The notes: generated by a model from the letters alone, not told the origin. DNA of 64,000 nucleotides from Halorubrum lacusprofundi ATCC 49239 (GCF_000022205.1 NC_012028.1:186001-250000), one strand, 5' to 3'. Numbered from the stretch's first letter, positions 27,023 through 47,931 are shown. A program made the numbers and translations.

Positions 27023-28090
27023 ATGGTAAATCTAATCGACATCGTTCTGGAGGGGTTCAAAGAGGTCGTCGATTGGGTAATCAGCCTCTTCATGGACGGG
27101 CTGCGATCAGGCTACGAAATCCTCTCCGAGGAGATATTCGGGACACCTACACCAGAGACCGATGGTGCATTTGTCTTTGGCAATCCCAATAACGCTCCTT
27201 GGCCTGTGATTCAGGATACACTGGTCGGTGGTGAGATCATGTTGATCTCACTACTTCTCCTCGTGATGTGCGTCCAAGGCCGTCACACAGTCCGAATCTT
27301 CAATATCGGAAGCGCATACGAGGCCAGACGCACCAAGAAAACCGCCTGGGTCGGTGCATTCCTGATCATCACCTGGTACTGGGTGAGTATCCTTGGTCTC
27401 TACATCGTAGACGGATTCACCATCGCCCTGATGCCGAGTTTGGACTCTCTGAGTGATGCGATGCTCAACTTCTTAGAGGTCTCGCTCAGCAACCCCGGGC
27501 TTTCGCTCGTCTTTGCTCTCATTGGAGGACTCTCAATGTGGGCGTTGGAGGCACTCTACTACATTCGTGAGGTCCTGCTGTACGTCTTCGTATATGGGAT
27601 GCCGATTGGGTTCGCTCTCGCATATGGAAACATCCCCGTCCTCTCCGATATCGCAATGGGGTTCAGTAAGCGATTTGTTCCATTAGCCATCCTGCCTCTC
27701 CCGGCAGCGGTAGTGTTCAAGGGATACGACCTTCTGTATTCTCAGAACGCAATCTCCCCGAGTACCCCCTTTTTGCGGTATCTGGTCGCAGTCTCACTTC
27801 CGGTCATCGCGCTCTACATCTCGTGGAAGACGTTCAAATTCGCGACCCCACTGACGGCAAAAGTCCTCGGTGGCGCGACAAAGGGGGCGACGCTTGTCGG
27901 CGGCGTGGCTGCCGGTGCGTACGTCGGCGGCGTCGGCGTCGCGACGACGGCCGCCCGATGGGGGCCGAAAGCCGCCGCAGGACACGCGCTTGCACAGAAA
28001 GCGGCCGCGCGCGGTGGCCACCGCGACGACGGCGACACACCGTCGTATCGACGCACCGAAAACGACCCAGTGACATCCTCCCCGGCGTAA
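27023..28090 (+). CDS. TrbL/VirB6-like conjugation membrane protein
   Basis: 355 aa with about eight hydrophobic segments (residues ~73-93, 108-132, 155-185, 190-215, 228-245, 253-275, 280-305) and a Gly/Ala-rich C-terminal region. It lies directly upstream of VirB4-type genes, which is where a VirB6/TrbL channel protein is expected in archaeal transfer operons. The last residues (VTSSPA) are encoded by the tip of the inserted 331-bp element, so the natural C-terminus has been replaced. Confidence 0.6.
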   Translation: MVNLIDIVLEGFKEVVDWVISLFMDGLRSGYEILSEEIFGTPTPETDGAFVFGNPNNAPWPVIQDTLVGGEIMLISLLLLVMCVQGRHTVRIFNIGSAYEARRTKKTAWVGAFLIITWYWVSILGLYIVDGFTIALMPSLDSLSDAMLNFLEVSLSNPGLSLVFALIGGLSMWALEALYYIREVLLYVFVYGMPIGFALAYGNIPVLSDIAMGFSKRFVPLAILPLPAAVVFKGYDLLYSQNAISPSTPFLRYLVAVSLPVIALYISWKTFKFATPLTAKVLGGATKGATLVGGVAAGAYVGGVGVATTAARWGPKAAAGHALAQKAAARGGHRDDGDTPSYRRTENDPVTSSPA

Positions 28091-28464: not shown

Positions 28465-29586
28465 ATGTCACTAGACCCAGACGCAGCTGCACGGCGCATC
28501 ATGAATCAGTTCGGTGAGGAGAGCCACATTCCGTACCTTAACATCGAGGAGGGCGACGTGGGCGTCCTCATCGCCTTTCCGATCGTCGGGCTCTTCGTCG
28601 CCGGAATCGCCGGCGTCGAGTCGCTTGCGCTTCCGTTTGTTGCCGGCGGGCTCGGGCTCGGCGTCGCAATCGTCTACGTCTCGCCAACCCACGTGAACGC
28701 GTGGACGTGGACGAAAGACGTCTCGCGATACGCTATGCGACCACAGATCACGTTTAGTGCCCCCGAGCACGCTGACGAGAGTCCCACCGAAACAGACCGG
28801 AATGCAGGCGGCCTCGCAAACTACACGCCGTTTACACCTGACGAGCGGACCCAAGACCTCACGAATATCGAACGGGCGTGGCCAGGTGCTGGGGCGATCC
28901 AACGTGCCGACGGGGGGATGGAGGCGTTCATCGAGATCGACCCGGACAACATGGACTTCGCGATGTCCGATGACTGGGCCCAGCTCCAAGACGCCGGCGA
29001 AGCGTTTGCCAACACGGAACTGGACGCAAAGCTCAAACTCCACGCGACAACTCGTTCGTTCCCGGTCGAACAGATCACCGAAACTATCGAGGACCGGCTC
29101 CACGACGAAGACGTCACAGCGAACCCGGTTTTCAAAGAACTCCTTGAGGAGTACCGAGAGACGCGCCCCAAAGAGATGCGCGAGCGGGGGACCCAGCAGA
29201 TTCGCTACTACATCGGCGTCCAGGTCACCCCGCTGGAGGTGTATGACCGCTTCCGCGATGAGGAGACGCCCGCCGAGAAGCTTACCCAGTTCCCCGTGAT
29301 CGGCTTCCTGTTCACCCCGTTTGTCACCCGTCGCGAGAATCTCACCGCCGTTGAGCGCCGCGCCCAACTGTTCGAGAAACTCGACAGTCGTGTCACCGAC
29401 GTGCGCACCGAGTTCATCCAACAGGCCTCGGGGTGGTCTGCCCGCCGGCTCAGCACGGTCGAGCTGTTCGTCCTCAATATGGACTTCTGGAACGGCTGCG
29501 AGCACGACTATGACGACGCAGAGCGTATCGTGCGCGACCACGCAATTATGGGTCACTCGCGCCGGGAGGATGCGCACAATGGATAA
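28465..29586 (+). CDS. conjugation protein, membrane anchor plus soluble domain
   Basis: 373 aa. Two hydrophobic helices near residues 31-70 (VLIAFPIVGLFVAGIAG and FVAGGLGLGVAIVYVS) are followed by a ~280-residue soluble part that resembles the N-terminal region of VirB4-type proteins. It overlaps the VirB4 ATPase start by 8 bp, so the two are coupled and probably form a complex; in other archaea PrgI-like and VirB4 N-terminal parts are similarly placed. Role inferred from context. Confidence 0.6.
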   Translation: MSLDPDAAARRIMNQFGEESHIPYLNIEEGDVGVLIAFPIVGLFVAGIAGVESLALPFVAGGLGLGVAIVYVSPTHVNAWTWTKDVSRYAMRPQITFSAPEHADESPTETDRNAGGLANYTPFTPDERTQDLTNIERAWPGAGAIQRADGGMEAFIEIDPDNMDFAMSDDWAQLQDAGEAFANTELDAKLKLHATTRSFPVEQITETIEDRLHDEDVTANPVFKELLEEYRETRPKEMRERGTQQIRYYIGVQVTPLEVYDRFRDEETPAEKLTQFPVIGFLFTPFVTRRENLTAVERRAQLFEKLDSRVTDVRTEFIQQASGWSARRLSTVELFVLNMDFWNGCEHDYDDAERIVRDHAIMGHSRREDAHNG

Positions 29587-31714
29587 CCAAATCCTCCAGT
29601 CGGGTAGCGAGGCTGTCGGCCAGTTAGTGGAGTGGCTGTCGAATCCGATCGCAGCTGAAGGCGCCGCCCTCTACGTCGGCATCGCGGTTGTTCTCGGCGT
29701 CGGTGGGACACGGCTCTGGGACTGGTACTCCGAAGATGACGACGAGGAAGTCGCATTCTCAGATCTCCTCGACGAGGAGACACTCAAAGACGGCAAGGCC
29801 GAACGGCAACTGCTCGACGACATCGCCGAATCACACAAGACGATCACCGCACCGGCCGCCATCGAATGGGACACACGAGCCGCACGCGTCGGCGAGCAGT
29901 GGACGACGACGCTGTACATCACTGAGTACCCGGACTACCCGAACGACGGGTATCTGAGCGACCTTTTCGAGCTGACCGATATCCAGTTCGACCTGACGGC
30001 GCATCTCACCCCAAAAAATCAGGAGCGGGCGCGGAACGAACTGCAAGAGATCGCTGATGATCTCCAGGTGGATGCTGATCTCGAACAGAGCGTTCGGAGT
30101 ACCTACCTGCAAGAGCGCGCCAACGAAGCCGCCGCGACCTACAAAGCCGTCGAGAACGGCGCGCGTGTCTTCGATCAAGGGCTGTACGTGACGGTGCGGG
30201 CCGACGAGAAAGACGACCTCCGAGATGCCGTCCAGACAGTCACCAGTGCGCTCCGTGATGATCCAGCGAACCTCACGCCGAAGACGGCGATCTGCCGGCA
30301 AGACCTCGCCCTCCAGTCTGCCGCACCCATCGGCAAGAACGTGTTCGGACGCACATCGATCGCGCTCGGGGGCGCCGTCGGCGCGATGCTTTCCTCACCA
30401 CACAACGCGACGATTCTCGAAGAGGGTGGCGTCGAATTCGGAATTCACAAAGATACCCAGAGTCCGGTCGTCATCGATCCGTTCGCCCGGGAGAACGGCT
30501 ATGCGATGTTCACGGTCGGGGACACGGGCTCAGGGAAGTCGTTCAGCTCGAAGCAAAACTTCATCCGCTCGATCGAGCAGAGCAAGGACCGCATCGGAAT
30601 CATCCTCGAACCGCTGAACAACTGGGCCGGCGTCGCCGAAGCTCTCGGCGCCAAACGCATCACGGTCGGCGGAACGCTCGGGCTAAATCCCCTAGAAATT
30701 CGCGAAACCCCCGAACACGTCCAGCGGGCGATGGGTGAGGACGCGAGTCCCTTTAACGAAAAACTCGATGACGCGATGAGTTTCCTCACGAACTTCTTCG
30801 CACTGCGGGGGATTTCACTCGGGGATCGACGGACGACGCTCGAACTCGGGCTCAAGCGTGCCTACAAACGTCAGGGGATTACGGACGACATTGCCACGCA
30901 CAGCAACCCGAGCCCGACCATCCGCGACATGCTGGATGTCTTCGAGGACATGATCGACGACCCTGAGGCGTTCATCGTCCGATCTGACGAGGAGACAGAG
31001 AAGATCACAGAGGATGCAACGTGGCTACTCGATCAGCTTCGCCCCTTCGAAGGGGGCGGTCGCCACGCCAATCTCGGTCAAGCGTCGGACTTCGACATCC
31101 ACGACGAGAAGGTCATCTACCTCGATCTCGCCCAACAGGAGGGTAGCGTCGACAGCAGCACGGCGCTGACGATGCAGCTGCTCATCTCGCTGGTGTACGA
31201 GCGAGCGAAGATATCGGACACAGAGGTCGTGTTCTACATCGATGAGGCACGCTACATCATGCAGGATGCTGCGAGTCTGGCGTTTCTTGAAACCGTGTTC
31301 CGTCACCATCGGCATCACGATCTGTCTATCCGGCTGGTCACCCAAACCGTCGATGAGTTCTTCGAGCACGCCGAAAGCGAGGCCATCCTCGATCAGTGTG
31401 CCGTCAAGCAGTTCCATCGCCTCGACGGGATGGACGAGGCGTGGGCCGCCGAATTCGGGTTGAACTACGCACAGATGCGGTTCGTCCAGGATGCGGTGCC
31501 CGGCAACGAGGATGCCGGCTTCGCTGAGGCGCTCATCGGCGTCGACGGCGAGTGGCGCGGCATCCAGGTCACAGCGATGCCCAACGAGAAACGGGTCATC
31601 GACTTCGACCCAGCCACCCAAGAACTGGCGTCGCTTCCGGGCGCCGGCGACACCATCGAGAGCGAACGGGCAGCGTTCCACACCGCACCCACTCACCGAG
31701 CACCGAACAAGTGA
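29579..31714 (+). CDS. VirB4/TraC-type conjugation ATPase
   Basis: 711 aa from the ATG at 29579. An N-terminal membrane segment lies near residues 24-45. Walker A is GDTGSGKSFSSKQ (about residues 316-324), Walker B VVFYIDEARYI, with a downstream Gln/Arg motif in SIRLVTQTVDEF. It powers assembly of the type IV-like mating channel. The earlier in-frame start is not used because it would overlap the whole end of the preceding gene. Confidence 0.85.
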   Translation: MDNQILQSGSEAVGQLVEWLSNPIAAEGAALYVGIAVVLGVGGTRLWDWYSEDDDEEVAFSDLLDEETLKDGKAERQLLDDIAESHKTITAPAAIEWDTRAARVGEQWTTTLYITEYPDYPNDGYLSDLFELTDIQFDLTAHLTPKNQERARNELQEIADDLQVDADLEQSVRSTYLQERANEAAATYKAVENGARVFDQGLYVTVRADEKDDLRDAVQTVTSALRDDPANLTPKTAICRQDLALQSAAPIGKNVFGRTSIALGGAVGAMLSSPHNATILEEGGVEFGIHKDTQSPVVIDPFARENGYAMFTVGDTGSGKSFSSKQNFIRSIEQSKDRIGIILEPLNNWAGVAEALGAKRITVGGTLGLNPLEIRETPEHVQRAMGEDASPFNEKLDDAMSFLTNFFALRGISLGDRRTTLELGLKRAYKRQGITDDIATHSNPSPTIRDMLDVFEDMIDDPEAFIVRSDEETEKITEDATWLLDQLRPFEGGGRHANLGQASDFDIHDEKVIYLDLAQQEGSVDSSTALTMQLLISLVYERAKISDTEVVFYIDEARYIMQDAASLAFLETVFRHHRHHDLSIRLVTQTVDEFFEHAESEAILDQCAVKQFHRLDGMDEAWAAEFGLNYAQMRFVQDAVPGNEDAGFAEALIGVDGEWRGIQVTAMPNEKRVIDFDPATQELASLPGAGDTIESERAAFHTAPTHRAPNK

Positions 31715-33839: not shown

Positions 33840-36800
33840 TTACTCTGACGCGTCGAGGTGCGTATCACGAACCGACTGAAACGTGAACACGTCGGTGAGT
33901 CCCGGCTGGTCGATCGTGAACACCGCTGGGCGGGTTTGTTTCCCGTAGCTCTTTTCGACGCGGGGCTGTCCGTCTGGCGGCGTGTTGAGCGCCTCGATCA
34001 CGGCGTGGGCGGCTTCGCGGTTTTTGACGATCCAGATGGCCGCGTTCGGCTCTTCGGCCGCCAGTTTGTCGTAATCCTCAGGGATGGCCCGACTCGCATC
34101 GTTGTTGATGCGCTCGGCTTCGAGCGCGGCGACGACGGCACCGGTCTCGTCGACGGCCGCAGCATCAAGCCGCCCCTCGCGCACCTCGTAGTAGCGCTCG
34201 ACCGTTGTGGCCGGAGAGCTCGGATCGTCGACGTACTCCGCTTCGAGCAGTTGACTCCCCACCTCGACCATGGCCACGTGAAAGCTGGACTCGCTGAGAT
34301 CGCCTGCGCCAGCGCCGTGAGCGACGCCTTCGCGGTGGCGCACGCCGATGGCATCACGGCCGTCCGGTGTGACCGTATACAGCGTATGCGGATACCGACA
34401 ATCACAGCTCACCAGTCCAGCCTCGCGCAGCTCGTCGACCTCGGTCGCGTCGATGCCAACGTACTCTTCGAGCCGCCGCATGCTGTCGCGGGTGATATCG
34501 TATTCGATTGTGGGGTCGTACTGTTGTTGGTGGGCTGAATACACCGCTTGCAGAAACCGGAGTCCCGCATCACTAATGGCGCTCTCGTGGCGCTCTGTGT
34601 AGGTGAGCTTGAGCGGCAGATCACAGATGGGGCAGTCGGCCCGATCGACCGTCGTCGGGTCGTGACAACAGCCCATCGCCGCCCGAAGCCCAGCCGGGGT
34701 GGGGTCATACGGAGTCTCACACGCCACACAGACGAGCGCGTGGCGCTCATCATCGTAGATAACGGGCTCTGGCAGTCGTTCAGTGTACGGCAGCGCCGAA
34801 TCGATCCGAGAGACGGTCGTCTCCGAGTCGGCAGGTGCGGCCTCGTCGCCAGCAGCCGTCTCAGTCTCTGGTGACCCGGTCGTCGCTCGCGTCGCCGTCA
34901 CGTCGATTCCGTACTCAAGCCGTGTCCGGTCGATAAGCACGTCTCGCTGGGCGGCAAACGCGGTCTCGCGTGCCGGCCGAAACGACTCTCGATCCGGATG
35001 GCCGGCTGGACGGGGCGCGCTCGCGACCAGAAACGGCCGTGGTGGCTCCAGTCCGAACGGAGCGGGCAGCCGCACTAGCCACTGGCCACGCTGTAGCGAC
35101 CGCAGGCGATTGCCGACGGCTGCGGGCTCCAGATCGGCAGTCGCGAGTCGCGTGGTGAGTGCGGTGTCGACAGCGACGCTACCAGTCACAATTGTCGAAA
35201 CGTTGTTGAGCAGCTCGATGTACGCTGCCTCATCACGCACACGCAGCTGGCCCGGAAACTGCGTGGCAAGCGTGACACTACAGCCGAACGACCGCGACTG
35301 GGCGAGCAAGTCATCAACAATACCGGAGGAGACGAGCTGAGCGGCCTCCTCAAGATACAGATTCACCAGTGCCCGGTCGGCCGGCTCAGTCGTGTGTGCC
35401 CGCCGTTGAAGCGCGGTCCACAGCTGTGAGAGGACGGTCTGTGTGAGCACGCGCTGGCTTGCGGTGCGCAACCCGCCGGTGTCGAGAATGATGATGGCGT
35501 CTTCATCGATCACCGATCGCAAATCGAACTGCGAATCGCCAGGTTCGGGGACGTGGTTAAACAGCTGGCCCAGCCGTTCATCGAGCGGGATTTTCTCGAT
35601 GCGGTTGTGCACCCCTTGGAGCAACTCATCAAACGACTGCTGGCTGTTGGCGGCCACGTTGTACAGCATCGATTGGAGCTCGTCATTGACCACTGGCGGC
35701 GGCTCACCGGTTTCGTGAAACCGGGCTGTTGTGCGTTGGAGATCGCGATGAGGGAACGCATCACTCCCGTGGACGGGATCAAAGAGTGCTTTCACCAACT
35801 GACGAATGATATCGGGAGAGCGGACGGCCTGCCGGAAGCGATCACGGCCCATCACACCTTCAAGGATCTCGATGTAGTGATCCGTGAGATCTTCGACGGC
35901 GGTCGTGCGATCGATACCGGCCGCCAGCTGGTCGCGAATGTCGAAAAATGAGAGTGCGGGGAGCGTCTCTGCACAATCAAAGTAGTAGACGTTCGCAAGT
36001 GTGCCGTAGCGCGCGTAATGAGCCCGCAGATACGCGTCGGCCATCGCATCGCCTTTCGGCGTGATGAGAATGTCGGCACCGGCTGTGGCGTCGGCGTTTG
36101 CGAGCATTCCCGTCAGCAAACTCGTTGATTTCCCCGAGCCCGTCTTCCCGAACCACGCAACGTGGAGCGGCTGGAGCGCCGGCGGCACCGCGATCGGATC
36201 GGCGGTGGGCGTTCCGTCCTGATCGAGTGGCTGGCCGATGACAAGACCGGAGTCACGGTAGCGCGTGAGTTGGCTGGCAGGCGGAGGTGGAAGCGCCGTC
36301 CGATCGGCGGCAGTCGGATCCACGGCGCGTGCGCCGCTTGCAGTAAGTGCGGTGCCATCAACCAGACAGATCGCGGGGAGCGTCGCCGCGTCCATAATGA
36401 GTCCGCGGCTCCGGTTTGCCGTCCACGGCAGCTTCGTGCGCGCAGTGTCGTAGGTTGGCTCATGGACCGTCCGCTCACGAACCGCCTCGACGACCGGCTC
36501 GGCGTCGGCGCCGGTCGTGACCGTACCGTCGATCGTGTAATATGCGTTGCTCACCCCCTCGAGTATGGTCGCAAGCCGGCGTGCGAGCGGCTCTGCCTGT
36601 GGCCCGCGAATCACACAGCGGGCGCTCACGAGAAATGCGTATTGCGGGTCGGCCGCGGCGATCGCCTCTTGCCGGCCAGCCGTCGCCGGATCGCGCTGGC
36701 GGTCTTGGGTGGGCCGTTTTTTCGGAGCAGTGTCGGCCAGCACATCGCCAACCAGATCATCCACAACGCGACTGGCGGGCGTGTCGCGACCTGCCTCGAG

Positions 36801-37385
36801 CTGCTGTTGTCGAGCGCGGGCGTCACCGCGCCAGTCGCGATACCGGCGACACACCACTTGATAGGTGACCGCTGCGGTGGTGTCTGTCAGTGCCTCGGCG
36901 ATCACCGCCAGTGGCAGCCGAGTTTCGTCGGTGGCTTGAAACACGGCAAACGGTGTCAACTGCGTCTGCCAGTCATCGCGTCGCTCGGCGTCACCGACCC
37001 ACTCGACGGCTGCCAGCGAAGTACCTTCATCGTCGGGAGTCGGTGTCTCAACCGCTGCGGGCGACTCAGGTGTCGCCGGCGTGAGTTCGTACTCGTTCGG
37101 ACACGCGGTGCGTAACCCTTCGTGTAGCGTTGCTGTGGGCGCATCAGTACTTCCGGCATAGAGGGTGAGATCGGCGTCCGGGCCGGCCGGCCGCTGGAGC
37201 CGGAACTCAAAGGTTGGCGCCCGCGTCCCGAAGAGCCGGTCGGTCCACCCGTCGGTGTCTGCATCACTGCTGTGAAGCCGACAAAAGCCCTGCGTAACGG
37301 CTGCCGGTGACAGGGCGGCGTCCGTCGGCCGGAGGTGGAGGTGTGTGGCGTCTTGCTGCGGGGAGGGGTCGGGCTGCTGCCCCAT
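33840..37385 (-). CDS. HerA/TraD-like coupling ATPase with C-terminal domains
   Basis: 1181 aa from ATG 37385, preferred over 37403 because a TTAAAAT box lies ~30 nt upstream. Walker A is GKTGSGKSTSLL (about residues 411-422), Walker B-like segments are AIIILDTGG and LVNLYLEEAAQL, and an LATQFPGQL sensor region is present. After residue ~850 there are Cys pairs (CVACE, CPICD), a winged-helix-like part (MRRLEEYVGIDATEVDEL) and RLDAAAVDETGAVVAALEAE, which could be a degenerate nuclease fold. It faces the PrimPol gene and is probably the DNA pump for transfer. Confidence 0.75.
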   Translation of the reverse strand: MGQQPDPSPQQDATHLHLRPTDAALSPAAVTQGFCRLHSSDADTDGWTDRLFGTRAPTFEFRLQRPAGPDADLTLYAGSTDAPTATLHEGLRTACPNEYELTPATPESPAAVETPTPDDEGTSLAAVEWVGDAERRDDWQTQLTPFAVFQATDETRLPLAVIAEALTDTTAAVTYQVVCRRYRDWRGDARARQQQLEAGRDTPASRVVDDLVGDVLADTAPKKRPTQDRQRDPATAGRQEAIAAADPQYAFLVSARCVIRGPQAEPLARRLATILEGVSNAYYTIDGTVTTGADAEPVVEAVRERTVHEPTYDTARTKLPWTANRSRGLIMDAATLPAICLVDGTALTASGARAVDPTAADRTALPPPPASQLTRYRDSGLVIGQPLDQDGTPTADPIAVPPALQPLHVAWFGKTGSGKSTSLLTGMLANADATAGADILITPKGDAMADAYLRAHYARYGTLANVYYFDCAETLPALSFFDIRDQLAAGIDRTTAVEDLTDHYIEILEGVMGRDRFRQAVRSPDIIRQLVKALFDPVHGSDAFPHRDLQRTTARFHETGEPPPVVNDELQSMLYNVAANSQQSFDELLQGVHNRIEKIPLDERLGQLFNHVPEPGDSQFDLRSVIDEDAIIILDTGGLRTASQRVLTQTVLSQLWTALQRRAHTTEPADRALVNLYLEEAAQLVSSGIVDDLLAQSRSFGCSVTLATQFPGQLRVRDEAAYIELLNNVSTIVTGSVAVDTALTTRLATADLEPAAVGNRLRSLQRGQWLVRLPAPFGLEPPRPFLVASAPRPAGHPDRESFRPARETAFAAQRDVLIDRTRLEYGIDVTATRATTGSPETETAAGDEAAPADSETTVSRIDSALPYTERLPEPVIYDDERHALVCVACETPYDPTPAGLRAAMGCCHDPTTVDRADCPICDLPLKLTYTERHESAISDAGLRFLQAVYSAHQQQYDPTIEYDITRDSMRRLEEYVGIDATEVDELREAGLVSCDCRYPHTLYTVTPDGRDAIGVRHREGVAHGAGAGDLSESSFHVAMVEVGSQLLEAEYVDDPSSPATTVERYYEVREGRLDAAAVDETGAVVAALEAERINNDASRAIPEDYDKLAAEEPNAAIWIVKNREAAHAVIEALNTPPDGQPRVEKSYGKQTRPAVFTIDQPGLTDVFTFQSVRDTHLDASE

Positions 37386-37595
37386 GGCCTGTAAAATGTA
37401 CATCCATTTGATTTTAATCTTATGGCGAGAAAGGTAGAGACGGCTGTTCAGGATACAAATATCCGGCTTTGTTGAAATCCTTAGCAGGTGATAGTTTTTA
37501 CCCGCAATCGCTCAGTACAGAGACTGGATATGATACGGCGGGTTTATCGACTATCTCAGTCGAGACATATCGCTCATTCTCCGGATGACGGGTAG

Positions 37596-37965: not shown

Positions 37966-38448
37966 ACCTGCGGCTTTAGCCGCAGGATGAATCCGACAAT
38001 ACACTACACGAATCCTCGTTCAATGGCAGTTTTGAGTTTCTAATCCGGAGTTTCAAATAATACCATCTCGTAGCAGGAGTAAGGTCAGGTCGGAACGGAG
38101 CGATTTCGAACGGCCTTTGGAGGCGGTTTACCCGCCACTAATGAGACAATATCCGGAACACCGACACGGTGAACACGAACGCAGAGACGTTCGCCTTGTG
38201 CCTGTTGGTTGAGCAAGCCAAAGGTAACTCCGAGTCCGTCGAAGTGTCAACGACTCCCTGCTGGCAAAAACAACAGATGGGAGTCACTGACACCAAGGAT
38301 AGGAGTAACGGCGGTTTGGCACCGCCAGTCAGCCGCTGACCACGATGGCTGGGTTAAACGGACTCCCGTGAAGTGGCAGAAGCATGGTTGCAAACCTGAA
38401 ACTCCCAACGCTCGGGATTCCTGCGTCTTCAGGCGCAAGAGGATGTCA
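37966..38448 (+). mobile_element. decayed tnpB-less IS200/IS605-type element
   Basis: The left tip is CAAGGAGAATACCTGCGG with a hairpin and GAATCCGACA. The right tip ends with a hairpin and AGGATGTCA. Near the right end GGATAGGAGTAACGGC matches the tnpB copies A and B scaffold. The adjoining stem is GGCGGT/ACCGCC (38310-38326) instead of GGCTGTG/CACAGCC. A frame near 38180-38340 ends like a TnpB C-terminus (DRSNGGLAPP), so it derives from a tnpB element. Confidence 0.6.
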
Positions 38449-38549: not shown

Positions 38550-38945
38550 TCAGGCGTTCGCCTTGCGGTCCTGCCCCGACGGCGGGGTGAGCGGGATGTC
38601 GGCATCGATCTCGTCGTACCACACGACCGGCCGCTTCGCCCGGCCGTCCTCTTCGAGTTCGATGAGGCCGTAGTCGGCAAGTTCGTTCACGTTCTCGAGG
38701 ACCTCTGGCGGGTTCCGATCGACGAGGCGCGCCAGCTCGCGGATGCTCTCCGGCTCGTGTTCGACGATCGCTTCCAGGAGCTCGAGGTTGGTCGAGCGGA
38801 AGACGCGACCGAACGTTTCGAGGTCCTCGATAGAGAGCGTCGGCTCGCTCGGTTCGACGTCCTCGCCGGCGTCGATCGCTTCGAGACGCTCTTCGAGGTC
38901 ACTACGATCGGTGGGCTTGATCTGGACGTGGAGTGTTCGGGTCAT
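38550..38945 (-). CDS. HVO_A0114-type winged-helix protein (antitoxin)
   Basis: 131 aa. It starts MTRTLHVQIKPT; a winged helix in the middle (NLELLEAIVEHEPESIRELARLVDR) continues to LADYGLIELEEDG, ending with an acidic/basic tail. It matches the HVO_A0114 group of haloarchaeal DNA-binding proteins that accompany TumE-like toxins. It is the second gene of the pair, 72 bp after the toxin, and probably represses the pair and neutralises the toxin. Confidence 0.7.
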   Translation of the reverse strand: MTRTLHVQIKPTDRSDLEERLEAIDAGEDVEPSEPTLSIEDLETFGRVFRSTNLELLEAIVEHEPESIRELARLVDRNPPEVLENVNELADYGLIELEEDGRAKRPVVWYDEIDADIPLTPPSGQDRKANA

Positions 38946-39017: not shown

Positions 39018-39314
39018 CTACCAGTCGTCGCGCTTCTCCGGAGGGAGCGCTGCCCGCCAGGCGCGGAAGATCTCCGCGAGGCCGGGGTAGTCGATCTCGA
39101 AGGTCTCGCCCCCGAGGTGGAGCTCGTGGACGCCGTGGTGGTTGTCGAACCGGATGATCGGGTCATCCGTGCCGGCTTCGCCGTAGTGGTAAGCGTACTT
39201 GATCCCTTCCTCGAATCGCTCCGACGTCGGGACCGAGAGCACGCGCACCCGCGCCACGGTGCCGTCGGCGTAGGCTTCAATCTCGTCTTCGAGTACGGTG
39301 ACATCATCGCTCAT
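39018..39314 (-). CDS. TumE-like toxin
   Basis: 98 aa from ATG 39314 (a GTG six bases upstream is possible). Key features are VARVRVLSVPTSERFEEG, YAYHYGEAGTDDPIIRFDN and HELHLGGETFEIDYPG. The pattern fits the TumE family of small RNase-type toxins as known from haloarchaeal plasmids. It is transcribed leftward into the winged-helix antitoxin gene. The toxin-first order is common for this type. Confidence 0.65.
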   Translation of the reverse strand: MSDDVTVLEDEIEAYADGTVARVRVLSVPTSERFEEGIKYAYHYGEAGTDDPIIRFDNHHGVHELHLGGETFEIDYPGLAEIFRAWRAALPPEKRDDW

Positions 39315-39391
39315 CCACACGTTTACTGACGCAACCGGTTCCGATAAGTGTTAGGGAAAATCCTAACAATAGCGGTAGAATTACAGGGCAT

Positions 39392-39431: not shown

Positions 39432-39756
39432 AGCCTGGAGCGCGAAAACGACCGTCTTCAGTTCGAATAGACGGAGAGCAGCGGACACTTCTCCAGCGAT
39501 GCGGAGGCGCTCTGTGAAGCCTGGTCGCAAAGAGATACTCTATGCCATGGTTCGTGAATCGCCGCTCGGTGATGTCGTCTGGAGCATCTTGAGTGTCTCC
39601 ACGGACCGACGTACGCCGTGACCGGATTGTGATGCCGAGACGTGCACTCGCGGACAACAAACGCCGCTGTGTCGATGAGTCCGATGAGACCGATGCGGTG
39701 ATCCCGATCACGATGACGCCAGCGTCTGCTCGGTGTGTGGCTCAGCCGGATTATTA

Positions 39757-39777
39757 TGCTCCCAATGGGTGGGAGCA
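39757..39777. promoter_or_regulatory. palindrome on the ArdC-like start codon
   Basis: TGCTCCCA-N5-TGGGAGCA is a perfect inverted repeat whose last base is the A of the ATG at 39777. A TTATTAT TATA-like box ends where it begins, so the palindrome fills the interval between box and transcription start of a leaderless mRNA. It is a likely repressor site. Confidence 0.55.
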
Positions 39778-40697
39778 TGGCTAAATCCCTGTCCACGAGC
39801 GGGTCAGTCACCTTCGGTGACGGTGACGCCCGCGCCGACCAGATGCATCAAGCGATCGACCAGTGGCTCGCCGAACTCGTTGACGGCGTCGACGAAGCGC
39901 GTGCCAGCGCACAGTTCCAGCGGTGGCTTGACGTGCAGAGTCACTTTCGCGACTACTCACACCGAAACACGCTGCTCATCACCCTGCAGTATCCCGACGC
40001 GACACGGGTTGCGGGGTATCGGACGTGGCAAGAAGAGTTCGACCGACACGTGACAGAAGGCGAGTCAGCGATCTGGATTTGGGCGCCGATCATCACGAAT
40101 CAGTGTCCCGAGTGCGGAGATGGACCTACCTACCACGAAACCAACGATTGTGCGTATGACGACACGCCACCCAACGAGTGGGAGACGGATGTTGTCGGAT
40201 TCAAGCCCGTTCCGGTGTTCGACGTCTCTCAAACTGACGGTGAGTCACTTCCCGAGTTGAAGACGGCAGCTCAGGGCGACGCGGACGGGCTGGTGACGGC
40301 GCTCCTCGAGGCGGTCACCGATCTCGAGATCGCAGTCGAGATACTCGAGAGTGAGGCATGGCCCCACGGCGACGCGGACGGCGTGTGTCGCCATGTCGAC
40401 GGTGACCCTCACGTGCAGGTGCGCGACGACGACACTGCGGCCGTCGCGGGGACGCTGCTTCATGAGTACGCGCACGCACTGCAGCATGATTCAACTGACG
40501 CGGCCGGGCGGGAGGCACGTGAACGGGAAGCTGAGGCGGTCGCATACGTTGTTGGGCGCCACTTTGATCTCGAGATGGACGGATCCGCGCGGTATCTCGC
40601 GGCATGGAGCGATGATGAGAGTGAGCAGCTCCTCACTCGGTGTGAGCGAATCCGCGACGTGAGTACCACGCTAATCGACGCGATCGACACGCAGTGA
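39777..40697 (+). CDS. ArdC-like antirestriction protein with HExxH domain
   Basis: 306 aa. The N-terminal ArdC-type ssDNA-binding region includes FQRWLDVQSHFRDYSHRN, QYPDATRVAGYRTW and WIWAPI. Two Cys pairs follow (NQCPECGD ... NDCAYDD). The C-terminal zinc-peptidase-like domain has LLHEYAHAL (HExxH) with a downstream Glu in EREAEAVAYVV. ArdC proteins of conjugative plasmids protect incoming DNA. It lies 44 bp before the GHKL/HExxH gene, in the same direction. Confidence 0.8.
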   Translation: MAKSLSTSGSVTFGDGDARADQMHQAIDQWLAELVDGVDEARASAQFQRWLDVQSHFRDYSHRNTLLITLQYPDATRVAGYRTWQEEFDRHVTEGESAIWIWAPIITNQCPECGDGPTYHETNDCAYDDTPPNEWETDVVGFKPVPVFDVSQTDGESLPELKTAAQGDADGLVTALLEAVTDLEIAVEILESEAWPHGDADGVCRHVDGDPHVQVRDDDTAAVAGTLLHEYAHALQHDSTDAAGREAREREAEAVAYVVGRHFDLEMDGSARYLAAWSDDESEQLLTRCERIRDVSTTLIDAIDTQ

Positions 40698-40741
40698 GGA
40701 CGCCCTTGCTGGGTTTCTGTGGTGCCCGAGGGGTGGACACC

Positions 40742-42412
40742 ATGTCCAAACAGTCGACACCCCCAGAATCGAGGGGGACCGAGCCGAGTCGTACCGCTTC
40801 TGTCGAGATGACCACCACCGATCAGGTCGCCCAGTACCTGATCGAAGACCAGATGGCGGATCTCACCGATGCCATTCGTGAAGCCGTCCAGAACGGCGTC
40901 GACAGTCCGGGTTCCGAGCGCGTGTTGGTGAGCGTCACGCCAGACCGGACAGTTGTCTGTGATGACGGCGCCGGCGTCGATCTCGCCGAGAAAGCGGGTC
41001 GTCGCGATCTCTCCGTGCTTGGGGCGGGAACCAAAGCGCGCGATGACGACGCGACACTCGGCGAGTGGGGAATCGGCACGGGCGCGATCATCGCAAAAGG
41101 CGCCGTCCGCATCTGGAGCGGCCACCAGGCGTTGTGTTTTGATTATCAGGACGCCAGAGACACAGCACCATTCGCGCAGGCGGCCGGCCGGAACGGGGTC
41201 GTCGTCGACACCGAGCATGCGTTCGACGGTGTCTGCGTAACCATTGATCACTACGCGAATGAGGTACCCGCCCCCGACAGCTACCGATGGCCACGCATCT
41301 ACGATCGGCTCTGCGAGCGATTCGGCTACCTCACCTTCCGGACGGGCGTCGAGATTGTGGTGAACGGGACGCCCGTCGATCGCGGGCATCCCTTTGATAC
41401 CGTCGACGACGCGCGTGTCGCCGTCACTCGTGAGACCACCGACGCCTACCTAGCGCTCACCCACACGCCCGATCAGGGGCTTGCCATCTACAGCAACGGG
41501 TTGTACGTCACCACCGATCACGATGCGGGCGTCGGGGGCGTCGTGGTCTCGAACGGTAATCTCACGCTGAACTTCGGGCGGACGGACATCCAATCGGGGT
41601 GTGATCGGTGGGGACGCATCCAAGAGACACTCGAAGACGCACGAATCGCGCTGTACGACCAGCTCAGCGATAACGCCCTTGCCGCCCAGACGCGATCGAT
41701 GATGGCCGAGTTGATCGCAACCGATGAGGGCCTTCGTGAGCGGTGGCGCGGGCGGCAGGTGTTCCAGCTCGTCACCGAGACGCCGGTGAGTCTCGCTCAG
41801 ATACAGGCGGCCCCGCAGATCGCCTTGCAGGAGGGTGTGGGACACGGCGCGGACGCACTCGTCGAGCGCGGATCCATTATCCTCGATACGACCGATCAGG
41901 CAACCGATCAACTGGCACGCGCGGCTCGCGATGACGACGCCGCGATCACGCTGCCAGACACCTTTGTGGTCCACGAACGCGCGGAAGCGCTCGGCATCTG
42001 GGAGGGATACACCCGGCTCGCCGATATCGAACTAACAACCCGACAAGGTCGCTATCTCCTGTTTGCGCGGGCGCTTGCCGATGCGATGGGGATCGATCGC
42101 ACCATCTCGTGGGGTGAGGCGACCGCCGACGCCTGGACGGATGGCTACACCCGGATCGTGATTACTGATTCGGCGGTGACGAGCCCGAAACGCGCGGTGT
42201 GGACTCACGATCTCTTTTTGGTGCTGTGTCACGAGGCGGCCCACGACCGCTCAGATAAGCGGCGGACGGCTCACGGGCGACGCTTTGAGAGTCGGTTTCG
42301 CGAACTCCTCGAGGACCCGAGCGCGCGACAGGCGTACACCGATCTGGTGGGTGCGATTCAGGAACAAGGATTCAAGCGCGTGTTTCGTGATCGTGGTGTG
42401 ACGCTCGGCTAG
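40742..42412 (+). CDS. GHKL ATPase fused to a HExxH zinc-peptidase-like domain
   Basis: 556 aa from ATG 40742. GHKL ATPase motifs: N-box LTDAIREAVQNGVDS, G1 CDDGAGVDL and G2 LGEWGIGTGA, all within the first ~125 residues. A transducer-like region follows. The C-terminus has LVLCHEAAHDRSDKRRTAHG: HExxH and a further His about ten residues on, as in SprT-like metalloproteins. The combination is unusual and the role unknown. Its ArdC-like neighbour suggests handling of incoming or damaged DNA, or counter-defence. Confidence 0.75.
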   Translation: MSKQSTPPESRGTEPSRTASVEMTTTDQVAQYLIEDQMADLTDAIREAVQNGVDSPGSERVLVSVTPDRTVVCDDGAGVDLAEKAGRRDLSVLGAGTKARDDDATLGEWGIGTGAIIAKGAVRIWSGHQALCFDYQDARDTAPFAQAAGRNGVVVDTEHAFDGVCVTIDHYANEVPAPDSYRWPRIYDRLCERFGYLTFRTGVEIVVNGTPVDRGHPFDTVDDARVAVTRETTDAYLALTHTPDQGLAIYSNGLYVTTDHDAGVGGVVVSNGNLTLNFGRTDIQSGCDRWGRIQETLEDARIALYDQLSDNALAAQTRSMMAELIATDEGLRERWRGRQVFQLVTETPVSLAQIQAAPQIALQEGVGHGADALVERGSIILDTTDQATDQLARAARDDDAAITLPDTFVVHERAEALGIWEGYTRLADIELTTRQGRYLLFARALADAMGIDRTISWGEATADAWTDGYTRIVITDSAVTSPKRAVWTHDLFLVLCHEAAHDRSDKRRTAHGRRFESRFRELLEDPSARQAYTDLVGAIQEQGFKRVFRDRGVTLG

Positions 42413-42446
42413 TGGGAGTATCTGCGGCGCCTGAGGGGCGGCCGCC

Positions 42447-42611
42447 ATGACCAATCCACTGGCAACGTTGAGCGATCGAATCGACACACAACTCACCCAC
42501 ACGGCGTGGGGACAGTGTTCACACCCTCCTGCTGCTCGTAGGTGCTACGACACCCCGGACGGGTCGCTCATGGCGTGTGAGCGCTGTGGCCGGATTGAGC
42601 GTAGCAGTTGA
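42447..42611 (+). CDS. zinc-ribbon microprotein, 54 aa
   Basis: The ATG at 42447 is 34 bp after the GHKL gene. Cys residues are in GQCSHP, ARRCYD and ACERCGR, so it may bind one zinc. It is too short for most gene finders. A stop and a second microprotein follow at once, so both belong to the ArdC-GHKL string. Confidence 0.5.
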   Translation: MTNPLATLSDRIDTQLTHTAWGQCSHPPAARRCYDTPDGSLMACERCGRIERSS

Positions 42612-42613
42612 GA

Positions 42614-42733
42614 ATGGGGTCGTACGAGACGTGTCCACAGTGTGAGACGACAGTCACCATCGTCATCGCCCACGGTCCGGAGATGGCGAGCTATCGTCCT
42701 TGCGGCCATCGTGTGCTGCCACCGATCGGCTGA
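42614..42733 (+). CDS. zinc-finger microprotein, 39 aa
   Basis: The ATG at 42614 lies 2 bp after the previous stop. ETCPQCETTV and RPCGHRV give a CxxC plus CxxH pattern, typical of haloarchaeal zinc-finger microproteins. Tight spacing to the preceding small gene supports co-transcription. Function unknown. Confidence 0.5.
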   Translation: MGSYETCPQCETTVTIVIAHGPEMASYRPCGHRVLPPIG

Positions 42734-42802
42734 GACGGAGCGATAATAGGGTTTTTCGCTCGCCGCGATGGACGCCGGCGAGCTAACTGCCGGCGTGACA
42801 CA

Positions 42803-43381
42803 ATGTCAACCCGATGTCAACTCCGGTTCGTCCGAACCCTCGAAGCGGGTCAGACGGCCGATCCGGCCGATCCAGTCGCACAGGTGTACACGCACTCAGA
42901 CGGGTATCCGAGTGGCGTGCTCAAGCGCTTGCAAGAACTCAAACAGCTGTTGGAGGCGACAACCAGTGTCCGGGGGCCCTCGTATGCGGCCGCTCAGTAC
43001 GTCTTCCTCGAAAAACTGGCGTCGTTGACACTGTATCTTGATCCCGATCGGGAAGCACGGCGCCGAGTTGACGCGCACTCGCCGGCCGACGTCTGTCAAC
43101 CCAGTCGGATGCAACACCTCTCACAGCCACTGTTTCTGCTTGGCCACGGGATCGAGGATCCTCGCGCGGGCATTCACGGCGATGAGGAGTATCTGTACAT
43201 CGTCGCGATTCCTCCATACGAACTCGGACAGATCGAGCCCCCCACGTGGCAGGTGGCCGTCAGCGAGCAGTGTGGATTCCCGCGATGGGACGATCAAACA
43301 GAGGGGGCGTTCAGCGAGGCGACGTGGCAGTTCGAAGGGTCGCTCACGGCTGCGCTGGAGACAGTCTGCGATGGGTTGTGA
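42803..43381 (+). CDS. plasmid-type hypothetical protein, 192 aa
   Basis: It starts MSTRCQLRFV and has TADPADPVAQVYTHSDGYP and LLGHGIEDPRAGIHGDEEY, ending ALETVCDGL. It is an acidic globular protein with no membrane segment and no catalytic motif that I recognise. The sequence style is that of haloarchaeal plasmid genes often found after ArdC-like genes. It is the last gene of the string before the inserted element at 43436. Confidence 0.6.
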   Translation: MSTRCQLRFVRTLEAGQTADPADPVAQVYTHSDGYPSGVLKRLQELKQLLEATTSVRGPSYAAAQYVFLEKLASLTLYLDPDREARRRVDAHSPADVCQPSRMQHLSQPLFLLGHGIEDPRAGIHGDEEYLYIVAIPPYELGQIEPPTWQVAVSEQCGFPRWDDQTEGAFSEATWQFEGSLTAALETVCDGL

Positions 43382-43435: not shown

Positions 43436-43765
43436 GTGACATCCTCCCCGGCGTGAACGCCGGGGCTTCCCGTACCGCAGGTGGGATATTTGCCGGTCTA
43501 CGACACGACCTGTTCTCGCGGGGCGAACGCTCCACTTTCTGAATCGAACAAGTGTGTCGATGGCTGTGCCACACAGCCGTTACTCCTATCCTCACCGTGA
43601 GGATAGGAGTTATCTTCTGACGCATATAGCCTATGTAGAACCAGTTACTTAATAGTTGTGGATTACCGTGGAATATCCGGCCAGAGTGTCATCGGTGGAC
43701 TGGTCAACAAGTGTCGGATTCACGCCCGCCGTAAACGGCGGGATTCTCTCCTTGTGAAAAGATAG
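43436..43765 (-). mobile_element. tnpB-less IS derivative, type 1, second copy (330 bp)
   Basis: Same structure and same deletion junction as the element at 28070 (left part through ACATAGGCTAT, joined to ATGCGTCAGAAG of the right end), with a few base differences. Stems GGCTGTG/CACAGCC (43562-43578) and the tip hairpin are intact. The flanks differ from the other copy, so it moved as a 330-bp unit. Confidence 0.8.
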
Positions 43766-45870: not shown

Positions 45871-45993
45871 CGCGTGCAGTCGCGCGTATGCTGGTTGGCA
45901 ATCACCTGAGCGTTGCTCAACTGTCGTTCTGGTGTTAAAATTGCCGTGTTCGATCCCCGAACACTCATACCGACTGGCGTTTGTTTCACGGAT

Positions 45994-47931
45994 ATGCCGT
46001 CGTACAGCGATGAGGAACTCCTTGCAGAGATTCGTCGCGTCGCAGAAAAGACCGACGCCGATGGCGCGCCAAGTCTCCAGGAGTTCAGAGACCGCGGCGA
46101 GATCGGGGCGCGAACAGTCACGAAGCGATTCGGATCGTGGAACGACGCCGTTGACGCCGCCGGATTCGAGCCACGTGCACCGAATCAAAAGCTTCCGCGT
46201 GAGGATCTCGTCGACGAACTTGAGCGGCTTCGTGACGACCGCGGCCAGATTCCTACTGCCGACCAGATGGACGAGCAGGGCGCGTACGCGTACATCACCT
46301 ACTACGAGCGGTTCGGTTCGTGGGCGAACGCCCTTGAGGAAGTCTTTGGCGAGGTTCCTGCCCGCGAGTGGGAGCACGTCTCGGATGCCGAGCTCATCGC
46401 CGAGCTGCAGCGGCTCGCTGGCGACGACGGAGACCGACCGACGACGACGGCTGTCCACGAGCGCGGTGCCCACGCGGTGACGACGTACAACGACCGATTC
46501 GGGTCGTGGCGAGACGCGCTCACGGCGGCCGGCTTCGACCCGCCGCCGCCCCAGGGCGTGACGACCGAGGAGTTACTTGCCGAGGTGCGCCGGCTTCACG
46601 ACGAGCTCGGCGGGAAACCAACGACGACGGTCGTTCGCGACCACGGCGCATACTCGCTTCCGACGTACTACAGCCGGTTTGATTCGTGGGGTGACGTCCT
46701 CGACGCCGCATTCGACACCATCCCTGATGACGATCCGCAGAGCCACACCACTGACCAGTCCACTAGCGTAACACACACCGACGAGGATCTCCTCGCAGAG
46801 ATCCGCCGCGTCGCCGACGTTGTCGATGCTGATGGCGCACCATCAATCCCGGAGTTCAACGAGCACAGCGACATCGCTGACAGTACAATCCACCGCCGGT
46901 TCGGATCGTGGAACGAGGGCGTTGCGGCCGCCGGCTTCGAGCCGAATCCGTATGGGCCCGCTATCTCGGACGACGAACTGGCTGCTGAGCTCCAGCGCCT
47001 CCGTGAGGAGGTCGGACACCCACCAACTGTCGCAGACATGGAGGAACAGGGCGCGTACTCATCGGCGACGTACAAGAACCGCTTTGACTCGTGGACCGCT
47101 GCGCTCGTCGAGACCTTTGAGGATGTCTCCGAGTCCACCCTCAACTCTCGCCGGGGCGACAGCGGTACGGGCAGTGACCGGAGTAACTGGAGCAAGGGTC
47201 CGCACGTCTCGGACGAGGAACTGCTGGATGATCTCCGGGCGCTTGCTGATGAGCTCGGTCGGTCGCCTACCTCACGGGACATGCGCGAACACGGCTCGCA
47301 TAGCGCCCGGACATACACGAGGCGGTTCGGCTCGTGGGCGGACGCCGTCGACGAAGCGGGAATCGACCTGCCTACCGAGACGACAACAGACGCCTCGAAC
47401 CAGATCCCAACCGCCGACCTAATCGCCGATCTCCAGCGACTCGGCGAGGAACTCGATCGGCGCCCCAAAACGACGGACGTGAGCGAACACGGGGCGCACG
47501 GGCTCGCCACGTACCAGCGCCGATTCGGGTCGTGGCGCGAGGCGCTAGAGGCGGCCGGGTTCGATCCGTACGCAGATCGGCCGAGTGATGACGACCTCCT
47601 TGCGGATCTACACCGGCTGCACGAAGAGCGTGAGAAGGTGCCCTCGCTGTTGGACGTCGAAGACGACGGCGCGTACAGCGGCACGGCCTACCAGGGCCGA
47701 TTCGGATCGTGGTCTGCAGCGCTCGACGCGGCGGGGTTCGATCCGGATCGCGGGCCGACTGACGACGAGCTGCTCGCAGAACTGCGGCGGCTTCGCGATG
47801 AGCTGGATAAGCGCCCCTCGATGCGCGACATGACCGAGCACGGCGCGTACGGGTGTACGACGTATCAGCGCCGGTTCGGCTCGTGGAGTGAAGCGACTGC
47901 AGCGGCATTCGACGACGATACGAGAACGTAG
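45994..47931 (+). CDS. ten-repeat homing-endonuclease-associated repeat protein
   Basis: 645 aa from ATG 45994, made almost only of ten tandem ~55-75 aa repeats. Each has an acidic helix (SDEELLAEIRR-type), a proline-containing segment (PT-x-D/V-E-x-G) and TYxxRFGSWxxALxAAGF. This is the homing endonuclease associated repeat (HNH_repeat type), thought to bind DNA. There is no HNH, LAGLIDADG or other nuclease motif. Modular repeats suggest recognition of a long DNA target. The gene lies just before the S-layer gene. Confidence 0.8.
   Translation: MPSYSDEELLAEIRRVAEKTDADGAPSLQEFRDRGEIGARTVTKRFGSWNDAVDAAGFEPRAPNQKLPREDLVDELERLRDDRGQIPTADQMDEQGAYAYITYYERFGSWANALEEVFGEVPAREWEHVSDAELIAELQRLAGDDGDRPTTTAVHERGAHAVTTYNDRFGSWRDALTAAGFDPPPPQGVTTEELLAEVRRLHDELGGKPTTTVVRDHGAYSLPTYYSRFDSWGDVLDAAFDTIPDDDPQSHTTDQSTSVTHTDEDLLAEIRRVADVVDADGAPSIPEFNEHSDIADSTIHRRFGSWNEGVAAAGFEPNPYGPAISDDELAAELQRLREEVGHPPTVADMEEQGAYSSATYKNRFDSWTAALVETFEDVSESTLNSRRGDSGTGSDRSNWSKGPHVSDEELLDDLRALADELGRSPTSRDMREHGSHSARTYTRRFGSWADAVDEAGIDLPTETTTDASNQIPTADLIADLQRLGEELDRRPKTTDVSEHGAHGLATYQRRFGSWREALEAAGFDPYADRPSDDDLLADLHRLHEEREKVPSLLDVEDDGAYSGTAYQGRFGSWSAALDAAGFDPDRGPTDDELLAELRRLRDELDKRPSMRDMTEHGAYGCTTYQRRFGSWSEATAAAFDDDTRT

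Follow-up and report, generated by a model that had tools for sequence, protein, structure and literature searches.

A putative hairpin promoter shared by ArdC, a GHKL-peptidase fusion gene and other genes of haloarchaeal conjugative elements

Single-stranded promoters of the Frpo/ssi type reportedly go back to work by Masai and Arai in 1997. How archaeal conjugative elements survive on entering a new cell is, to our knowledge, almost unexplored. Frpo sequences are hairpin promoters that lie on one strand before anti-restriction and anti-defence genes of conjugative elements (Samuel et al. 2024, PMC11541004); the word "archaea" does not occur in the text of that paper. Plasmids of the pLS20 family have common regulatory sequences upstream of ardC and other establishment genes, namely EGeRS1 of the pLS20/p576 family, which is 400-600 bp long and contains inverted repeats, and EGeRS2, which uses Reg operators (PMC8708921). 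In these Bacillus regulons ardC and unrelated genes, in separate operons and mosaic sets, follow one upstream sequence (PMC8708921). Likewise, in the haloarchaeal conjugative element described here a single regulatory sequence precedes ardC as well as several genes unrelated to it. It consists of a 36-nt T-box plus hairpin and is unrelated in sequence to that of pLS20/p576. It resembles Frpo/ssi in that it can form a hairpin, is repeated, lies on one strand and precedes anti-restriction genes, whereas the bacterial -35 and -10 boxes are found inside the stem and the haloarchaeal T-box is outside it.

The window is a stretch of 64,000 nt from Halorubrum lacusprofundi ATCC 49239 (NC_012028.1:186001-250000), and coordinates are counted from its start. 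It is part of replicon C1 (525,943 bp) in a genome of 3,692,576 bp and three replicons. A first-pass annotation had placed a string of four genes at 39777-42733 (+), coding for an ArdC-like protein, a GHKL ATPase and two Cys-rich microproteins, and the reading frames are found where it put them. The conjugative setting that it proposed is also borne out. A TrbL/VirB6-like conjugal transfer protein is encoded at 27023..28090 (+; PF19590, E 2.8e-137), a VirB4/TraG-like ATPase at 29321..31714 (+; weak Pfam matches, with a second copy at C1:409274-411208) and a VirD4/TrwB-like coupling protein at 33840..37403 (-; PF10412, 21.6 vs 20.5 bits). The last is divergent from ArdC, a layout also seen in Halorubrum relatives, and because VirD4 adjoins ArdC in this way the segment is taken to be a leading region. 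Neither a relaxase nor an oriT was located. The intergenic interval from VirD4 to ArdC, roughly 170-250 bp, was considered as the site of a conserved oriT, but its alignments gave one clear common block, which is the ArdC promoter, and the idea was rejected. In the window, an HVO_A0114-type HTH and TumE-like toxin pair (38550-38945 and 39018-39320, -) is inserted between VirD4 and ArdC; five relative loci (L032, L033, L034, L051 and L059) lack the pair in their 170-250 bp interval.

The ArdC gene runs from the ATG at 39777 to a stop at 40697 (+) and encodes 306 aa. Judged by its sequence, the protein is a member of the ArdC family, with an N-terminal domain of the ssDNA-binding type, on the basis of ArdcN (PF08401, 24.2 bits against a Pfam cut-off of 22.6) and of HExxH with a downstream Glu. 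It had been described as ending in HExxH; the motif is present, as HEYAH at residues 229-233, but it lies in the C-terminal half and not at the very end. HEYAH and the downstream EAEAV are invariant across 13 aligned members, which also have a conserved extra CPxC...H...C insert. Domain layout (PF08401 plus a metallopeptidase domain), HExxH and conjugative setting are those of the ArdC family, and many bacterial relatives annotated as ArdC are found on conjugative plasmids. The window protein differs from these in the insert and in sequence, with about 27-37% identity. PADLOC gave only a weak peptidase_U41 match for ArdC. The gene is present in 232 of 391 Halobacteria genomes, far more than the GHKL fusion (25 of 391).

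The second gene (40742..42412, +; 556 aa) encodes a putative GHKL (Hsp90/GyrB-like) ATPase with a transducer-like domain and a fused Wss1/minigluzincin-like HExxH domain. Its frame is open from a GTG at 40694, and homology and the hairpin promoter put the start at the ATG at 40742, which leaves 44 bp between the two genes and no overlap with ArdC. The protein does end in HExxH with a distal His as first described (HEAAH-x9-HG): HEAAH occupies residues 497-501, and the third His, H511, is followed by G512. No loss of catalytic residues, which had been named as a result that would count against the proposal, was seen among the homologues; the N-box, DDGxG, GIGxG, HExxH and HGxxF are kept in 28 of 28 intact copies. 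In an alignment of 16 proteins E47, N51, D74-G78 and G107-G112 are invariant, as are the peptidase residues H497, E498, H501 and H511. Identity is 74-76% in Halorubrum and 55-59% in Natrialbaceae. The fusion is indeed rare, and its 34 named loci are all haloarchaeal, with 17 haloarchaeal plasmid records among its hosts. Neither phage records nor IMG/VR contained a relative, and a viral origin was rejected.

Structure prediction, a check that the first-pass annotation had proposed, points to an Hsp90/GyrB-like half and a zinc-peptidase-like half. The AlphaFold2 model has a mean pLDDT of 80, and its N-terminal half matches Hsp90/TRAP1 and GyrB-type ATPase-transducer structures with Z of about 19. 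Modelled alone, the C-terminal half reaches pLDDT 87, and every top-ranking structure that it matches is that of a zinc peptidase: Wss1 (Z 7.3 over 101 residues, a suggestive level in a range where common arrangements also score), then ERAP1, abylysin (Foldseek E 0.01), selecase and HtpX. We predict an Hsp90-like ATPase that carries a peptidase domain of the Wss1 kind. Predicted fold and active-site motifs agree with Hsp90/GyrB GHKL ATPases in the first half; in the second, HExxH plus third His agree with Wss1/SPRTN and abylysin/selecase metallopeptidases, and the predicted fold suggests the same families. It differs from both parent families in that sequence similarity falls under curated cut-offs; for PF13589 the score is 17.9 bits against a Pfam cut-off of 25, which is a convenience criterion and does not define the superfamily. 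In the literature searched, no report was found of an Hsp90/GyrB-type ATPase and a Wss1-type peptidase in one protein. We infer its function from this fold and from its gene company.

The two Cys-rich microproteins have the reported sizes. The 54-aa protein (42447..42611, +) is of a C-x-H...C-x2-C zinc type, and its homologues in L033, L034 and L060 keep all four ligands. The 39-aa protein (42614..42733, +) is zinc-ribbon-like and reads CPxC...PCGH; six Halorubrum homologues have CPxC...CxPCGH, and measured against them the window copy is one Cys short, having lost the third. Further downstream is a gene for a 192-aa protein, p192 (42803..43381, +), with no fold assigned, which the gene neighbourhoods of relatives link to ArdC and GHKL. 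It is found downstream of both in Halorubrum, and upstream of ArdC in Natrialbaceae.

The first description had the two metallopeptidase-like domains side by side. The linkage is conserved on other haloarchaeal replicons, but direct adjacency is special to the window because cargo separates the genes in relatives. The 20-kb surroundings of the 28 GHKL copies that form the main clade show a same-strand ArdC gene no more than about 9 kb upstream in 24 cases; another two copies have it about 11 kb off on the same contig and strand. The gap in relatives is usually 0.4-6 kb, and the genes are back to back only in the window. The gap contains PIN/TA genes, IS elements, TnpB-like genes and HalOD1 genes (names taken partly from plasmid annotation and partly from sequence reading). 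This cargo, together with the start at 40742, rules out a single overlapping ArdC-GHKL operon. Four divergent GHKL relatives (29-36% identity) have neither ArdC nor the promoter motif.

The factor common to the genes of the string is a putative promoter hairpin, which the first-pass annotation overlooked. Scanning only the window with a loose motif gave no overall significance, and for this reason a covariance model (R1, whose E-values are rough) and genome-wide controls were used. The motif of 36 nt comprises a T-box, a covarying stem of 5-9 bp and a constant loop, RAKGGGYG, with the ATG after it. The model finds four copies in the window, all on the plus strand. The ArdC copy (39746..39781; 32.0 bits, E 5.7e-7) has a T-box, a stem ATGCTCCC/GGGAGCAT and a loop AATGGGTG and adjoins the ATG. 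The GHKL copy (40710..40745; 36.3 bits, E 3.3e-8) reads GTTTCTGT-GGTGCC-CGAGGGGT-GG-A-CACC-ATG, and the copy of the 54-aa gene (42415..42450; 29.8 bits, E 2.6e-6) reads GGCGCC-TGAGGGGC-GG-C-CGCC-ATG; these two sites are the only matches to GGYGNNNNRRGGGYGGNCRCCATG in the genome. Before the 192-aa gene (42749..42784; 22.0 bits, E 5e-4) the stem is GCTCGCCG/CGGCGAGC and the loop CGATGGACGC, and this hairpin is retained in both Halorubrum and Natrialbaceae.

A dyad with the loop GAKGGGYG adjoins the GHKL ATG in all 26 main-clade loci examined, and such a dyad also adjoins the ATG of ArdC in Halorubrum and that of the 54-aa gene. The loop recurs, in different stems, before the ArdC gene of Natrialbaceae, before the 192-aa gene of both families and before other genes. 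Altogether 25 instances align nearly gap-free from the T-box through the right arm. In upstream alignments conservation sets in sharply at the T-rich box, and the sequence beyond it is unrelated cargo. In four relatives the GHKL promoter hairpin and about 25 codons are present a second time, as a stretch of 92-103 bp on the far side of the cargo, 0.9-2.5 kb upstream (L032 8085-8187 on its reverse strand, L042 7099-7190, L057 7117-7208 and L051 6734-6834). These copies begin exactly at the T-box, and recombination at the hairpin is possible.

The stem is conserved as pairing rather than as sequence. In the alignment of 25 instances, 84.8% of the cells are paired against 56.4% after shuffling, with 39 double-change cells against 13.8 and a covariation score of 0.745 against 0.242. 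For 53 distinct sites outside the training set, in an alignment fitted to the model, the double-change cells number 50 against 18 and the score is 0.480 against 0.136. In both sets pairing collapses when the partner columns are slid by 1-3. To avoid circularity, sites were also sought with a weight matrix built from T-box and loop, with the stem ignored; the 57 strong non-training sites that it returned have 3.14 of 5 Watson-Crick pairs against 1.28 in the background and about 2 when slid by one. Folded as ssDNA, most sites are more stable than shuffles (z about -1 to -5; -4.15 for the ArdC site and -2.98 for that of the 192-aa gene), while the GHKL hairpin of the window is no more stable than shuffled DNA (z -0.14). 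The T-box is unpaired in nearly all folded sites. Stems that vary yet remain paired, around a loop that is fixed, favour a single-stranded or cruciform form.

The motif sits in same-strand clusters on mobile replicons. H. lacusprofundi has about 35 sites in six clusters, each on one strand, on the secondary replicons C1 and C3, and the 2.7 Mb main chromosome has no site at E 0.1 or better with R1. Recognisable T4SS genes are near two of the six clusters, and nearly all sites have an ORF start within about 55 nt. Among listed sites, neighbours less than 15 kb apart agree in strand in 31 of 31 cases in this genome and in 40 of 41 in other genomes. It is worth noting that two near-identical hairpin/ArdC clusters are found on one replicon, at C1:100.7-103.6 kb and C1:260.8-263.7 kb. 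R1 detects the motif in 67 of 116 Halobacteria genomes; in a draw of genomes from the whole phylum it occurred in 13 of 24 Halobacteria against 2 of 124 others, both of the latter being marginal single matches. Counted genome by genome with three weak ArdC matches set aside, motif and ArdC co-occur in 57 genomes and are both missing in 39; ten genomes have ArdC but no detected hairpin, and another ten have a hairpin but no ArdC (odds ratio 22, p 1.4e-12, shared ancestry ignored). The genes under the motif in H. lacusprofundi include five ArdC copies, 192-aa homologues, DUF6610, DUF6166, DUF6735, SWIM-zinc, HNH and TFB genes. Largely the same families follow 40 sites from other genomes, with TFB in three. 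These TFB (TFIIB) genes, at C1:380708 (-) in H. lacusprofundi and in L140, L141 and L154, hint at an element-encoded initiation factor.

By analogy with the bacterial plasmids, this suggests that ArdC, GHKL and the other genes behind the hairpin are an archaeal version of their establishment genes. We consider it probable, and the best reading, that the string belongs to a haloarchaeal conjugation-establishment regulon, a leading-region-like module, under a shared hairpin promoter; establishment is the best common purpose because of the setting of VirD4, VirB4-like and TrbL genes and because ArdC is under the motif. The genes would be separate units united by one promoter. In that promoter a T-rich, TATA-like box would lie about 28 nt upstream of the presumed transcription start, with the hairpin between the two; for ArdC, GHKL and the 54-aa gene the start would be at or a few nt from the start codon, presumably giving a leaderless transcript. 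A T-box near -28 and a hairpin that ends at or just before the ATG fit an archaeal promoter with a hairpin-forming spacer. If the bacterial analogy holds for the timing, the promoter would activate these genes together, most likely on entry of the element into a new cell. ArdC would then block restriction, and the GHKL protein may work like Hsp90 as a clamp gated by ATP, offering a host or DNA-bound protein to the Wss1-like zinc peptidase domain that it carries, with proteolysis and targets equally conjectural.

The nature of the promoter can be read in several ways. An ordinary double-stranded promoter with an operator is a real possibility, if short of probable. A repressor or activator would read RAKGGGYG, the dyad or both, and a recipient free of repressor would give transient expression, like Reg on p576. 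The spacing from T-box to loop, fixed at 14 nt, the ATG at the position of a leaderless start and the end of GHKL promoter conservation just upstream of the T-box all agree with this, and there is the precedent of PMC8708921; yet one dsDNA-binding protein would not accept free variation of the stem and at the same time require pairing.

That requirement, with the constant loop, is what a promoter on single-stranded DNA would explain. Within the establishment-regulon reading, of which this is a sub-reading, the hairpin would fold in the incoming strand and recruit transcription, perhaps via the element's TFB, before second-strand synthesis, much as Frpo does; we regard this as a tentative possibility. 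The one-strand clusters, the anti-restriction gene under the hairpin and the TFB genes under it in several genomes speak for it, although same-strand operons by themselves also yield strand bias and the T-box, unlike the Frpo boxes, is unpaired. We also know of no archaeal transcription from ssDNA, which counts against it. The fuller version seems unlikely: a dedicated hairpin promoter that evolved apart from Frpo, works on the single strand as it enters, with the element's own TFB, and expresses anti-restriction and other establishment proteins, the Hsp90-peptidase fusion among them, before second-strand synthesis.

An RNA element, in which a hairpin in the 5' leader controls translation or stability, is distinctly improbable. 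Covariation is classic for RNA, and in ArdC, GHKL and the 54-aa gene a Shine-Dalgarno-like loop lies close to the ATG, but the distance from hairpin to ATG ranges from 0 to over 50 nt across sites, so that the loop does not generally serve as a ribosome site. Since the sequence upstream is unrelated cargo at each locus, there is also no room for a conserved promoter before the hairpin, and Rfam has no family at the four window hairpins up to E 5. The only known RNA family in the area is sot0042, with matches away from the hairpins at 43445-43615 (-) and 38222-38440 (+), one above and one below the gathering score, which are probably IS200/605-type remnants.

GHKL ATPases and metallopeptidases are both known from conflict systems and TA modules lie beside the GHKL gene, but the combined anti-restriction or defence function first proposed was not borne out. 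PADLOC assigned neither GHKL nor the microproteins to a known defence system, the GHKL gene has its promoter in common with the anti-restriction factor ArdC, and we find a defence effector very improbable.

In the literature searched, which included few subscription papers, no description of the motif in haloarchaea was found. The 36-nt signature allows candidate genes for establishment and anti-defence to be listed directly across hundreds of haloarchaeal genomes, and it also helps to recognise conjugative elements. DUF6610, DUF6166, DUF6735, p192 and the GHKL-peptidase gain a first functional hypothesis, and archaeal transcription from incoming single-stranded DNA becomes a question that can be put to the test.

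Two further loci may be mentioned. A divergent GHKL-peptidase on the Halobaculum halophilum plasmid NZ_CP058532.1 (L066) is part of a long one-strand array of tiny genes that looks plasmid-virus-like and has no ArdC and no hairpin. In the window itself, 45913-47931 (+) encodes a 672-aa protein with ten homing-endonuclease-associated HNH repeats.
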